Of a stretch of DNA of 24,672 nt, positions 22,460-24,623 are shown piece by piece. The stretch lies in the IMG/VR virus record IMGVR_UViG_3300043409_001085, positions 1 through 24,672 of that record; one strand, given 5' to 3'. The notes below the pieces were generated by a model that saw only the letters and a list, made by a program, of their open reading frames with translations, was not told the origin of the DNA and did not search any database. A program made the position numbers and the translations under genes. The DNA comes from a virus. Numbering within the stretch: the stretch's first letter is position 1; every line of letters begins with the position of its first letter.

Positions 22460-22620
22460 GGCAGCCCCTTGGAGTTCTGCAGGGCTGCCTCAGCGTTGGC
22501 CAGCTTGGCCAGGCTGAAGGGCCGGTGGTTGTAGGTCACCCGGTCCAAGACGACCCATTGGCCGTTGGTGAATCGAGCCTGGAAGCGCGGGCCAACCGGC
22601 GCGCGTTGATAGTTTCTCAT
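22453..22620 (-). CDS. Small basic hypothetical early protein
   Basis: 55 aa starting MRNYQRAPVGPRFQARFTNG at 22620, preceded by GGGGAA at 4-5 nt; an upstream in-frame ATG at 22653 lies within the hairpin spacer and has no ribosome site. Continues QWVVLDRVTYNHRPFSLAKL and ends NSKGLPW. Strongly basic, beta-rich start. Function unknown. It is the first gene after the long hairpin at 22645-22695 and is coupled to the next gene. Confidence 0.66.
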   Translation of the reverse strand: MRNYQRAPVGPRFQARFTNGQWVVLDRVTYNHRPFSLAKLANAEAALQNSKGLPW

Positions 22621-22644
22621 AGGGTTCCCCAAATGATGCCACAT

Positions 22645-22695
22645 GGCACCCACAAAGACCCGGAAGGCGCTTGTGGGTGCCGCCCCGAGGGCGGC
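22645..22695 (-). repeat. Long early intergenic hairpin pair
   Basis: A perfect 11-bp stem, GGCACCCACAA (22645-22655) with TTGTGGGTGCC (22671-22681), encloses 15 nt. It is followed at once by a GC-rich stem, GCCGCCC (22679-22685) with GGGCGGC (22689-22695), around CGA; the two share 3 nt and compete partly. It fills the spacer between the 22702-23238 and 22453-22620 genes. There is no T-tract on either side, so an RNA processing site is more likely than a terminator. Confidence 0.7.
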
Positions 22696-22701
22696 GGGCT
22701 G

Positions 22702-23238
22702 TCACACTGCGTCATGCACCAGGTAAGCAGTCACCAGACTGCGCAGTAGCGGTATCTGCGCCCGGTCGAAGGACCTGTTCCACCCTTTCGGGCTGAAGGC
22801 CACAGGGGCAAACTCAGCCAATGTCAGCCCCTGGCCGAATGGGTACGAGACCTTGACCTCGTGCGCCCCATTCCTGTTCAAGTCCAGGCGGGCCCGGTCT
22901 GACTCAGGCCGGCCGAACTTGTAAGCACCCGCCCGGACACGGGTGCTGTCCATACAGTAGGTGACTCCGTCGAGGATGTACCGCACGCCGACGTGCCCCA
23001 TACTCAGGTGCCTCACGGCGTTGCCCGCGTCTACATGACTGCGTGGTGTGTGCTCGTCATTCCAGGGGTCAGGCAGGATTATCTCCACTTCTGCGATCTT
23101 CAGGTCTTTCAGCGCCTTCGCGGCCAGCGCGGCGAATACCCCACACCCGCCGTAGTTCAGGCACAGGATGTTACGGTCGACGGCGGAGCGAAGCCGCACA
23201 AGGCGGCGGGCAAGCTCCCGTTGGTTGATGGTTGCCAT
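22702..23238 (-). CDS. Early protein with a Cys-His-Asp pattern (possible cysteine-peptidase fold)
   Basis: 178 aa starting MATINQRELARRLVRLRSAV at 23238. No Shine-Dalgarno is evident; a longer start at 23355 would run through the structured spacer and the kinase gene with low-quality sequence, so it is rejected. NYGGCGVFAALAAKAL puts C32 at the head of a hydrophobic helix, and GHVGVRYILDGVTYCMDS puts H82 on a strand followed by D97. That order (Cys helix, His strand, Asp/Asn) occurs in papain-like and transglutaminase-like peptidases. The catalytic call is inference only. Position next to the early kinase gene suggests action on host proteins. Confidence 0.72.
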   Translation of the reverse strand: MATINQRELARRLVRLRSAVDRNILCLNYGGCGVFAALAAKALKDLKIAEVEIILPDPWNDEHTPRSHVDAGNAVRHLSMGHVGVRYILDGVTYCMDSTRVRAGAYKFGRPESDRARLDLNRNGAHEVKVSYPFGQGLTLAEFAPVAFSPKGWNRSFDRAQIPLLRSLVTAYLVHDAV

Positions 23239-23251
23239 GATGGGATGGTGG

Positions 23252-23300
23252 GTTGCAGTGCACAGCGCACTCCAAAGCCCGCGACGGCGGGCGATGGGCT
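23252..23300 (-). repeat. 49-nt two-hairpin element, copy 2
   Basis: Same layout as the copy at 23959-24007: GTTGCAGTGC opening, stem AGTGC/GCACT (23257-23261 with 23267-23271), 5-nt spacer, stem GCCCGC/GCGGGC (23277-23282 with 23287-23292) with a 4-nt loop, 3 nt, then GGGCT. It lies between the kinase stop and the start of the 178-aa gene. Relative to copy 1, differences fall in loops and spacers, plus one compensatory pair change. An RNA-level function is therefore likely. Confidence 0.75.
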
Positions 23301-23306
23301 GAGCTG

Positions 23307-23948
23307 TTATTGAACCCGCATGTGAAACTGCTGCTGCAGGGGCGGCAGCTTCCACTGGGCGCGGGTGGCAGGCAGGGCGCGGCGTAGCGACGCAGAAGGG
23401 AACCCAGCCCAGCGTGGCGCCGTCAACGCCCGGACAGTGTCGGCGCAGCTCCCGGTGTAGCTGTTACCTGACGGGTCTGTGATGATAAGCTCCTGGCGCG
23501 CTTCTGACCACATCACGTTCCCGCTGTGGAGGTCGCCCGTGGCCTCGTCACCCAGGTGGCCGTGCAGCAGGTGCACGGTGTCTGCCAGCTCGGGTAGCTG
23601 GCACAGCTCCCACGACCAATGGGTCCTCGACCAGCCTTTGTGTACGCGGATGGTGTAGTCGTACCGTTCCATGACGGCGTACCAGGAGTCACGCGAGTAA
23701 CAACCCTGCGCCTCCTTCATTACTGGCAGCTCGCTGGCGTCGCCAACGGCAAACACCCACGGCAGGTTCTTCATTTCCGGGCTGCCGCGACCGTAACGGC
23801 GGCCCCGCACAAAGCACCACTCGATGAAATCGCGGGTGCCGTCGTTATCGGCCACCTTCAGGGCCATATCGACTCCGTACTCATACACTACGGCGTATGC
23901 GCCCTTGCCCCGCACGGGCCCGACAAGGTCTTTGCTAACCTTGAGCAT
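23307..23948 (-). CDS. Early protein kinase resembling the kinase domain of T7 gp0.7
   Basis: 213 aa. A glycine-rich loop RGKGAYAVVYE (13-23) and ALKVAD with K31 are followed by the catalytic loop GDLHSGNVMW (138-147; D139, N144) and a metal-binding ITDPSGN (D158). The DLHSGN..ITDP arrangement is close to the T7 gp0.7 sequence DMHSGNIMF..ITDP. T7 gp0.7 (359 aa) phosphorylates host RNA polymerase, RNase III and others early in infection and has a C-terminal host transcription shut-off domain. Here the protein ends soon after the kinase domain, so that domain appears to be absent. The ATG at 23948 has GGAGA 6 nt upstream. Confidence 0.82.
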   Translation of the reverse strand: MLKVSKDLVGPVRGKGAYAVVYEYGVDMALKVADNDGTRDFIEWCFVRGRRYGRGSPEMKNLPWVFAVGDASELPVMKEAQGCYSRDSWYAVMERYDYTIRVHKGWSRTHWSWELCQLPELADTVHLLHGHLGDEATGDLHSGNVMWSEARQELIITDPSGNSYTGSCADTVRALTAPRWAGFPSASLRRALPATRAQWKLPPLQQQFHMRVQ

Positions 23949-23958
23949 GACAATCTCC

Positions 23959-24007
23959 GTTGCAGTGCCAAACGCACTCCCAGGCCCACCGCAGTGGGCT
24001 AGGGGCT
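23959..24007 (-). repeat. 49-nt two-hairpin element, copy 1
   Basis: Located between the stop of the first early gene and the start of the kinase gene. GTTGCAGTGC opening, stem AGTGC/GCACT (23964-23968 with 23974-23978) with a 5-nt loop, 5-nt spacer, stem GCCCAC/GTGGGC (23984-23989 with 23994-23999) with a 4-nt loop, 3 nt, then GGGCT. Exactly the same length and spacing as copy 2 (23252-23300), with an A-T to G-C pair exchange in the second stem. In mRNA the first stem lies just ahead of the kinase ribosome binding site. Confidence 0.75.
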
Positions 24008-24027
24008 ACGCTTTAAGCGGCCGTAGA

Positions 24028-24513
24028 TCAGAAGGCTGCTTCTCCCACCCCGGCCAGGTTATCCTCGTCGGCCGTGGTTTCGCGGGCTTGGCCCACTACT
24101 TCACCCGCAGGGTCCACCACGCCCAGGGCATCCAGCACCATGCGGGCCATGCGGCGACCCTCAATTTGCTTGCCACTGTAGCCCTTGGCGCCGCTGGGCC
24201 GCTCAAGGGTCTTTTCGGCCAGCATGATGATGGCGCCCTTCTTCCATGCCTGACCCTCGACAGGGGCGCAGAACTTCTTGGTGGCCGCGTCAGCCGCAAA
24301 GCCGATGATTTCAGCCGCCGCTTTGTAATAGCCGTTCTTGACCTTGGTGATGGCGGACTGAATGCCGTGGTGCTTGATAAAGGTAGCGGCTTGCTTGCCA
24401 CCCACCACAAAGGCCGTTTCCAGTTCCACATGGGTAACCTTCTTGCCCGTGGTCAGGGCAAAGGTACCGGGCAGCTGGATGGTGGAAACGGCAGTGTTGG
24501 TCGATTGTTCCAT
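24028..24513 (-). CDS. Hypothetical protein, first gene of the early region in this window
   Basis: 161 aa from the ATG at 24513 (MEQSTNTAVSTIQLPGTFAL). An in-frame ATG at 24549 would add 12 residues but lies in the inverted repeat at 24545-24582, so the shorter form is preferred; the ribosome binding site (GTGAGAA) is weak. Contains VELETAFVVGGKQAATFIKH, a lysine-rich centre, and EGRRMARMVLDALGVVDPAG with an acidic tail. I do not recognise a family. Being first after the putative early promoter, it may be made in quantity at the start of infection. Confidence 0.75.
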   Translation of the reverse strand: MEQSTNTAVSTIQLPGTFALTTGKKVTHVELETAFVVGGKQAATFIKHHGIQSAITKVKNGYYKAAAEIIGFAADAATKKFCAPVEGQAWKKGAIIMLAEKTLERPSGAKGYSGKQIEGRRMARMVLDALGVVDPAGEVVGQARETTADEDNLAGVGEAAF

Positions 24514-24544
24514 GTTGATTCTCACAGATTGAACGATGCAACAG

Positions 24545-24582
24545 TGCATCCTACAATACCCGAACAGATACTGTAGGATGCA
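24545..24582. repeat. Perfect 11-bp inverted repeat in the early leader
   Basis: TGCATCCTACA (24545-24555) and TGTAGGATGCA (24572-24582) flank 16 nt. It lies between the TATAAT box (24600-24595) and the first early gene, so it would be in the 5' untranslated region of early mRNA or act as an operator just downstream of the promoter. It is not related in sequence to the 49-nt elements. The dyad itself is certain; its role is inferred. Confidence 0.7.
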
Positions 24583-24594
24583 GGCGCAGGGAGG

Positions 24595-24623
24595 ATTATA
24601 AACCTCATGCCGCGCCGTGCATT
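24595..24623 (-). promoter_or_regulatory. Possible host sigma-70 promoter for the early genes
   Basis: On the minus strand a perfect TATAAT lies at 24600-24595 in otherwise GC-rich DNA. At spacings of 15-17 nt no strong -35 box exists (best candidates match 2-3 of 6 positions of TTGACA). Position upstream of the first early gene in the window fits an early promoter served by host RNA polymerase, but the weak -35 leaves this tentative. Between 24513 and the window end nothing else coding was found. Confidence 0.4.

Follow-up and report, generated by a model that had tools for sequence, protein, structure and literature searches.

Between the early genes of phage T7, the messenger RNA carries a series of RNase III sites (R0.3, R0.5, R1, R1.1 and R1.3), which are structured RNAs of about 50 nt located near the stop codon of one gene and the Shine-Dalgarno (SD) sequence of the next, and which form hairpins with upper stems of 9–13 bp, most of them with a lower stem as well. 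The early RNA of HK022 contains the cis-acting put sites, each a pair of adjoining stem-loops present as two leader copies only, and cluster K mycobacteriophages repeat a signal (SAS) just upstream of many start sites, which includes an inverted repeat in its extended form (ESAS). RNA pseudoknots have been described as well, with gp32 binding one that lies 67 nt upstream of its own start codon (PMC3014915), and with the ToxI antitoxins consisting of repeated small pseudoknots (PMC12373285).

The locus described here belongs to a 24,672-base IMG/VR virus record (IMGVR_UViG_3300043409_001085), probably a fragment, which was analysed as a whole and is referred to below as the window. Its main genes are on the minus strand and follow a phiKMV-like order, in which the early genes at the high-coordinate end are succeeded by those for the primase, helicase, DNA polymerase and RNA polymerase and then by the virion genes; judging from this gene order, the early region of the carriers would be transcribed by the host polymerase. 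By its helicase, the nearest cultured relative is Curvibacter phage P26059B (Kalppathivirus), and the helicase was also the route by which relatives of the window were reached. Searches of the phage collection returned no nucleotide relatives of the early region and no relatives of the gene 2 kinase protein, and the search of the viral contigs returned none of gene 1. The features of the early region are, in the direction of transcription:

24535–24577, minus strand: gene 1 leader hairpin, adjoining ATGCA-CTGT-TGCAT; candidate third copy only
24028–24513, minus strand: gene 1, the first early gene in the window, 5′ of copy A, without a family match
24010–24014, minus strand: copy A pseudoknot 5′ strand AAAGC, pairing with loop GTTTG in four of five positions, one of them G-U
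23959–24007, minus strand: copy A core; P2 lower stem 24002–24004 with 23979–23981, P2 upper stem 23994–23999 with 23984–23989, P3 23974–23978 with 23964–23968, P3 loop 23969–23973; same fold as copy B
23307–23948, minus strand: gene 2, a T7 gp0.7-like protein kinase (PHROG phrog_15752, E 1.3e-8, a short match)
23303–23307, minus strand: copy B pseudoknot 5′ strand ACAGC, pairing with loop GCTGT in five of five positions
23252–23300, minus strand: copy B core; P2 lower stem 23295–23297 with 23272–23274, P2 upper stem 23287–23292 with 23277–23282, P3 23267–23271 with 23257–23261, P3 loop 23262–23266; same fold as copy A
22702–23238, minus strand: gene 3, 3′ of copy B, function unknown, with a related open reading frame (ORF) in contig L013

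In contig L013, a homologue of gene 1 also lies immediately 5′ of that contig's first copy of the element.

A preliminary description of this DNA had reported two 49-nt copies with the same stems and spacing, and both were confirmed, on the minus strand and in a gapless alignment; they are the only strong copies in the window, one following gene 1 and one following gene 2, so that the kinase gene has copy A before it and copy B after it. Their shared fold, ...(((..((((((....))))))..)))(((((.....)))))....., comprises a first hairpin (P2) of six pairs, a 2 × 2 mismatch and three lower pairs, which abuts the second hairpin (P3) with zero spacer. The differences between the copies number 12 on recounting, not 13, and eight of them are indeed unpaired, as had been claimed for all but one pair; the other four, however, make up two complete pair swaps, with the result that all 14 pairs are intact, an outcome with P of about 0.002 for 12 random substitutions. 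The swap at positions 13–20 (A-U to G-C) is the one already recognized, in what had been called the second stem, whereas that at 6–27 (C-G to A-U) had been misread as changes in a spacer. The start of the element had been placed too far 3′, since the sequence extends 5′ to 24010–24014 and 23303–23307, segments which pair with the P3 loops, and the alternative fold proposed for a GGGCT motif is not conserved, copy A reading GGGCC and the relatives not keeping the pairing. An intrinsic terminator, which requires a U tract after a GC-rich hairpin, does not describe the window copies, where the bases that come after the hairpins are CTGGG or TTTGG for P2 and GCAAC for P3.

Two neighboring stretches of the minus strand contain hairpins of their own. 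The gene 1 leader hairpin has the layout of the element but no sequence or model match, being missed by both of the refined models described below (R2 and R3), and the layout scan that yielded it returns 0–2 hits in shuffled windows too. In the same leader (24535–24600), TATAAT at 24595–24600 is followed by a long hairpin with ATCTGTT in its loop, which we take to be the heptamer of the T7 class II (CJ) termination signals, although seven bases may match by chance. The hairpins in the gap between genes 3 and 4 (22618–22701), GCCGCC..GGCGGC and CACCCACAA..TTGTGGGTG, are different ones and go unmatched by the models.

The preliminary description had proposed a covariation search starting from the two copies, and a covariance model built from copies A and B alone (R1) found the element in phiKMV-like relatives with its structure conserved; at E < 0.005, the window and the viral contigs related to it yielded 27 matches. 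The model built from the R1 matches (R2) matched 57 times at E < 0.05, across 56 sources and always on the coding strand, and with a third model (R3) the count for the first record set was 84 (E < 0.01), although these represent fewer distinct elements because several contigs overlap; the refined models gave 37 further matches in two other phage types, all E-values being rough as they come from a shortened calibration. Copy A scores 59.0 bits with R2 and 54.3 bits with R3, and copy B 62.4 and 57.9 bits. The element measures about 57 nt including the pseudoknot strand and is present in 1–6 copies per record; across the family, P2 has 4–10 bp above the two-mismatch joint (4 bp in some copies) and P3 has 5–6 bp. 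In alignment A6, which has 57 distinct rows, 98.2% of the cells are paired and 12 of the 14 pairs show changes on both sides, with a covariation score of 0.695 as compared to 0.153 after shuffling and at most 0.19 in slid registers; A6 was fitted to the model, which favors the covariation score, but the controls are nonetheless far lower. Covariation, strand and position in a large number of phages thus give strong support to the initial suggestion of an RNA element between early genes. The two copies are members of an undescribed family of small knotted RNA structures, and the structure itself we consider to be established with high confidence.

A further pair, between model positions 3 and 45, covaries too (CG in 27, AU in 8, UG in 4 and unpaired in 8), which may partly reflect the existence of two subtypes, and it is not claimed here as part of the fold. 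One subtype starts with AGA (or ATA) and has CCTGC..GCAGG or CCTAC..GTAGG as its P3 in place of AGTGC..GCACT; it is often the copy nearest to the primase and occurs in L006, L008, L012, L016, L019, L020, L022, L023, L025 and L045. A self-cleaving ribozyme was considered and rejected, as few unpaired bases are conserved. No Rfam 15 family reached its gathering score, a permissive search of the region giving one chance-level match elsewhere, and no paper describing the element was found in the open-access literature searched.

Outside the core, the segment that lies 3–7 (or 8) nt 5′ of it is complementary to the apical loop of P3, with strand and loop combinations such as AAAGC/GCTTT, TCAGC/GCTGA, GACATT/AATGTC, GATAGT/ACTATC and TGATC/GATCA. 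In one fixed register, 88.8% of the cells are paired over 99 distinct elements, as compared to 70.1% after exchanging the loops at random among elements (none of 1000 such shuffles being as high) and 30–48% in shifted registers; this 5′ strand lies outside R1, R2 and R3, which makes the test independent of the models, although relatedness can inflate any shuffle test. A hairpin loop that pairs with an outside strand, with support from covariation, defines the H-type class, and the topology predicted from these alignments is that of an H-type pseudoknot with P2 inserted between its first strand and P3. The same compensatory changes bear on the idea of a DNA-level feature, i.e., a promoter of the phage RNA polymerase, a protein operator or a recombination site, for which one could cite the near-palindromic P3 (AGTGC..GCACT) and the identical elements that flank different genes in L090 and L091. 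The changes in all helices, the pseudoknot included, preserve pairing and not DNA sequence, all matches are in gene orientation, and the fragments representing the other phage types yielded no T7-type RNA polymerase, so that we regard a DNA-level role as highly improbable.

The placement of the element is as regular as its fold. In 49 of 63 matches, the stop codon of an open frame is found at −3 to 12 nt upstream (7% at random positions), in 42 of 63 an SD sequence and start codon follow 8–20 nt downstream (8% at random), and both are in place in 32 of 63 (1% at random), i.e., the element fills the gap that extends from the stop codon to the SD sequence of the next early gene. Some copies are 31–50 nt from the start codon and yet still at the stop codon. 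Pseudoknot strand and stop codon overlap in 59 of 91 elements (19 of 46 in the autographivirus group, 29 of 34 and 11 of 11 in the other groups), and in copy B of the window the first base of that strand is the final base of the kinase stop codon. Stop-codon readthrough was also considered, and it is not general, the upstream frame closing within 60 codons in 67 of 80 cases. Of the 54 sense matches in the autographivirus records, 50 are in the early region, at 1.7–6.9 kb upstream of the helicase; the match in L033 would count as early too, provided that its record is circularly permuted, and the remaining ones are weak.

The start codon 8–20 nt downstream in 42 of 63 matches would suit translational control, in which a pseudoknot before the SD sequence recruits ribosomes (e.g., through protein S1) or serves as an operator that shuts the early genes together, and the binding of gp32 to the gene 32 pseudoknot of T4 is a precedent for such a phage operator (PMC3014915). 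This reading is, however, at odds with the copies at 31–50 nt from the start but at the stop codon, the stop anchor being at least as tight, and with an SD sequence that lies outside the structure, and a single phage repressor would not explain the occurrence in three unrelated phage types; we consider it a rather doubtful explanation. The same gap, together with a similar length, is what the T7 R sites would lead one to expect of a strict RNase III site, at which the host enzyme cuts within the stacked P2–P3 helix as in T7 early mRNA, and the setting is comparable, with early genes presumably transcribed by the host, judging from gene order, and a gp0.7-like kinase. The helices argue otherwise, since the upper stems of the T7 sites are uninterrupted over 9–13 bp while P2 and P3 have the shorter dimensions given above, and the pseudoknot is conserved even though it would not be needed for cutting, making a strict RNase III site unlikely.

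Several genes recur next to the element. Aquamicrobium phage P14 carries a copy upstream of a gene annotated as a Ser/Thr kinase, an arrangement like that of copy A and the kinase gene in the window. The annotated start of P14 gp05 (L115 2232; NC_041912 gp05) falls within an element, and the true start is probably further downstream, past the SD sequence. In many relatives, the early gene 5′ of the first copy is phrog_1448, function unknown (e.g., L020 4732–5247, with homologues in L006, L008, L031 and others), which is a candidate partner or simply a conserved neighbor.

The most regular arrangement is that of L090 and L091, in which 5–6 consecutive elements, spaced by 250–450 nt, each head a small ORF; comparable arrays of small early ORFs headed by elements occur in the HTVC023P-like contigs L090, L091, L095, L097, L211, L219, L222 and L223. 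An identical element sequence stands before different genes in L090 and L091, with different upstream genes too, which implies that the element marks cassette boundaries and may be the place at which cassettes recombine or are exchanged. Such spacing bears on antitermination in the manner of HK022 put, by which the element would help the host RNA polymerase through a long early operon. In both cases two adjoining stem-loops occur in early transcripts, and a long host-transcribed operon would be expected where, as in the phiKMV-like order, the RNA polymerase gene is late. The put sites, however, are in leaders as opposed to every 250–450 nt, and the left/right repeat of HK022 (78% identity; L109 28282–28243 on the minus and 29478–29518 on the plus strand, not annotated in the record), which we take to be putL and putR, is unlike the element and is not found by the model. 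Identity with put was therefore rejected for want of a sequence or structure match, the put sites having been located through that repeat, and antitermination of this kind seems to us very unlikely.

The preliminary description had regarded the structure as possibly unique to one lineage, which turned out to be wrong, as the element is shared by three or more phage types whose replication and packaging genes are unrelated; the independence of these groups was judged from marker genes on fragments, the group names being similarity labels only. The carriers other than autographiviruses were reached by a pattern scan of viral contigs. In one group (L093, L103 and relatives), the primase/helicase is closest to an uncultured podovirus record and to Pelagibacter phages HTVC115P, HTVC103P and HTVC104P, and in the other (L090, L091 and relatives) the terminase is closest to phage 023Pt_psg01 and Pelagibacter phages HTVC027P and HTVC023P; a search of 80 and 78 relatives of these groups gave 14 and 23 further matches, in a single orientation per set. 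In the annotated record MW202701, of the L093/L103 type, a copy lies exactly between two annotated genes.

The stretches searched of HTVC115P, HTVC027P, 023Pt_psg01 and DSL-LC04 gave no match, and no convincing match was obtained in T7, HK022, phiKMV, KP34, Cd1, Lullwater, BL199, f20-Xaj, Scott or PSTNGR1; an exact 20-nt pattern search found nothing. A specific pattern matched three times in bacterial and archaeal genomes totalling 257 billion bases, about the number estimated for chance, and in two of the three genomes, when searched again, the best score was 28.5 bits (E 0.003). R3 found none in 299 Pseudomonadota genomes, an empty result that shows little with about 20 candidates scored per genome. 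Two weak late matches after the capsid gene (G006 and G017) were left out of the counts because their second hairpin is not properly formed.

Occurrence in unrelated phages, together with the early position, would also fit an anti-defence decoy, in which multi-copy early pseudoknots mimic the RNA antitoxins of type III toxin-antitoxin systems (ToxIN-like) or similar; the ToxI antitoxins consist of a 36-nt pseudoknot in repeated form (PMC12373285), and evasion of ToxIN through RNA mimicry has been reported for a phage (PMC3475682). A decoy would not need a fixed placement between stop codon and SD sequence, the Rfam search gave no match and the inserted P2 is unlike the simple ToxI pseudoknot; we hold the decoy to be decidedly unlikely.

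Since unrelated phages share it, the element probably acts in the mRNA via a host-supplied factor or autonomously, and not via the RNA polymerase or repressor of one phage. The regular placement at the stop codon and SD sequence, with one element per cassette, points to a role at message boundaries rather than to a single leader-type antiterminator, and processing or end protection has the best precedent, because gaps of this kind are where the RNase III sites of T7 lie. The explanation that we tentatively put first, as a serious possibility short of a probable one, is therefore that of an intercistronic boundary element, which would determine how each early message is processed, how stable it is or whether it is translated independently. 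A ribosome finishing the upstream gene would hold the 5′ strand of the pseudoknot open; after its departure, the RNA would fold and separate the two messages, in that the folded element would mark or shield the RNA ends that host nucleases generate and keep the downstream start site available for independent use. In its deployment, such an element would resemble the RNase III sites between the T7 early genes, with a different structure. Against the boundary role stand the helices, which are short for RNase III, and the copies at 31–50 nt from the start codon, and the presence of a single element in each gap would suit translational control or multi-copy decoys as well.

A broader reading, which we consider possible but doubtful, is that of a mobile RNA element common to unrelated phages, with folding gated by the ribosome that finishes the upstream gene, as suggested by the stop codon being part of the pseudoknot strand, and acting as a general module that engages a conserved host factor. 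If this were true, each early host-takeover gene would be an independent, exchangeable expression cassette. A structured RNA found across unrelated phage types at the borders of fast-evolving early genes suggests a common host-directed mechanism of early expression, and in cassette arrays the element delimits small takeover genes, which should aid in finding them in phages of uncultured hosts. With Curvibacter phage P26059B as a cultured carrier, the question is directly testable.

Of the known systems, SAS differs in that its sequence is conserved, whereas the element conserves its structure but varies in sequence and has, in addition, a pseudoknot and an anchor to the stop codon. ToxI shares with the element the repetition of small RNA pseudoknots but consists of 36-nt tandem repeats beside a toxin gene, as opposed to copies of about 57 nt that have an extra hairpin and are separated by genes, among which no toxin gene was recognized in the neighbors scanned. 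The autoregulatory pseudoknot of T4/T2 gene 32 is likewise of the H-type and upstream of a phage start codon; it is, however, a single operator of one gene, bound by gp32, while the element is repeated many times in front of genes unrelated to one another, contains P2 as an insert and has the stop codon within its first strand. The RNase III site of the preliminary description survives as a functional analogy of placement only, since two abutting short hairpins and a pseudoknot replace the long stems of the T7 R sites and the model finds nothing in T7. What the two have in common is a structured RNA of about 50 nt, repeated between early genes and set near a stop codon and the next SD sequence.
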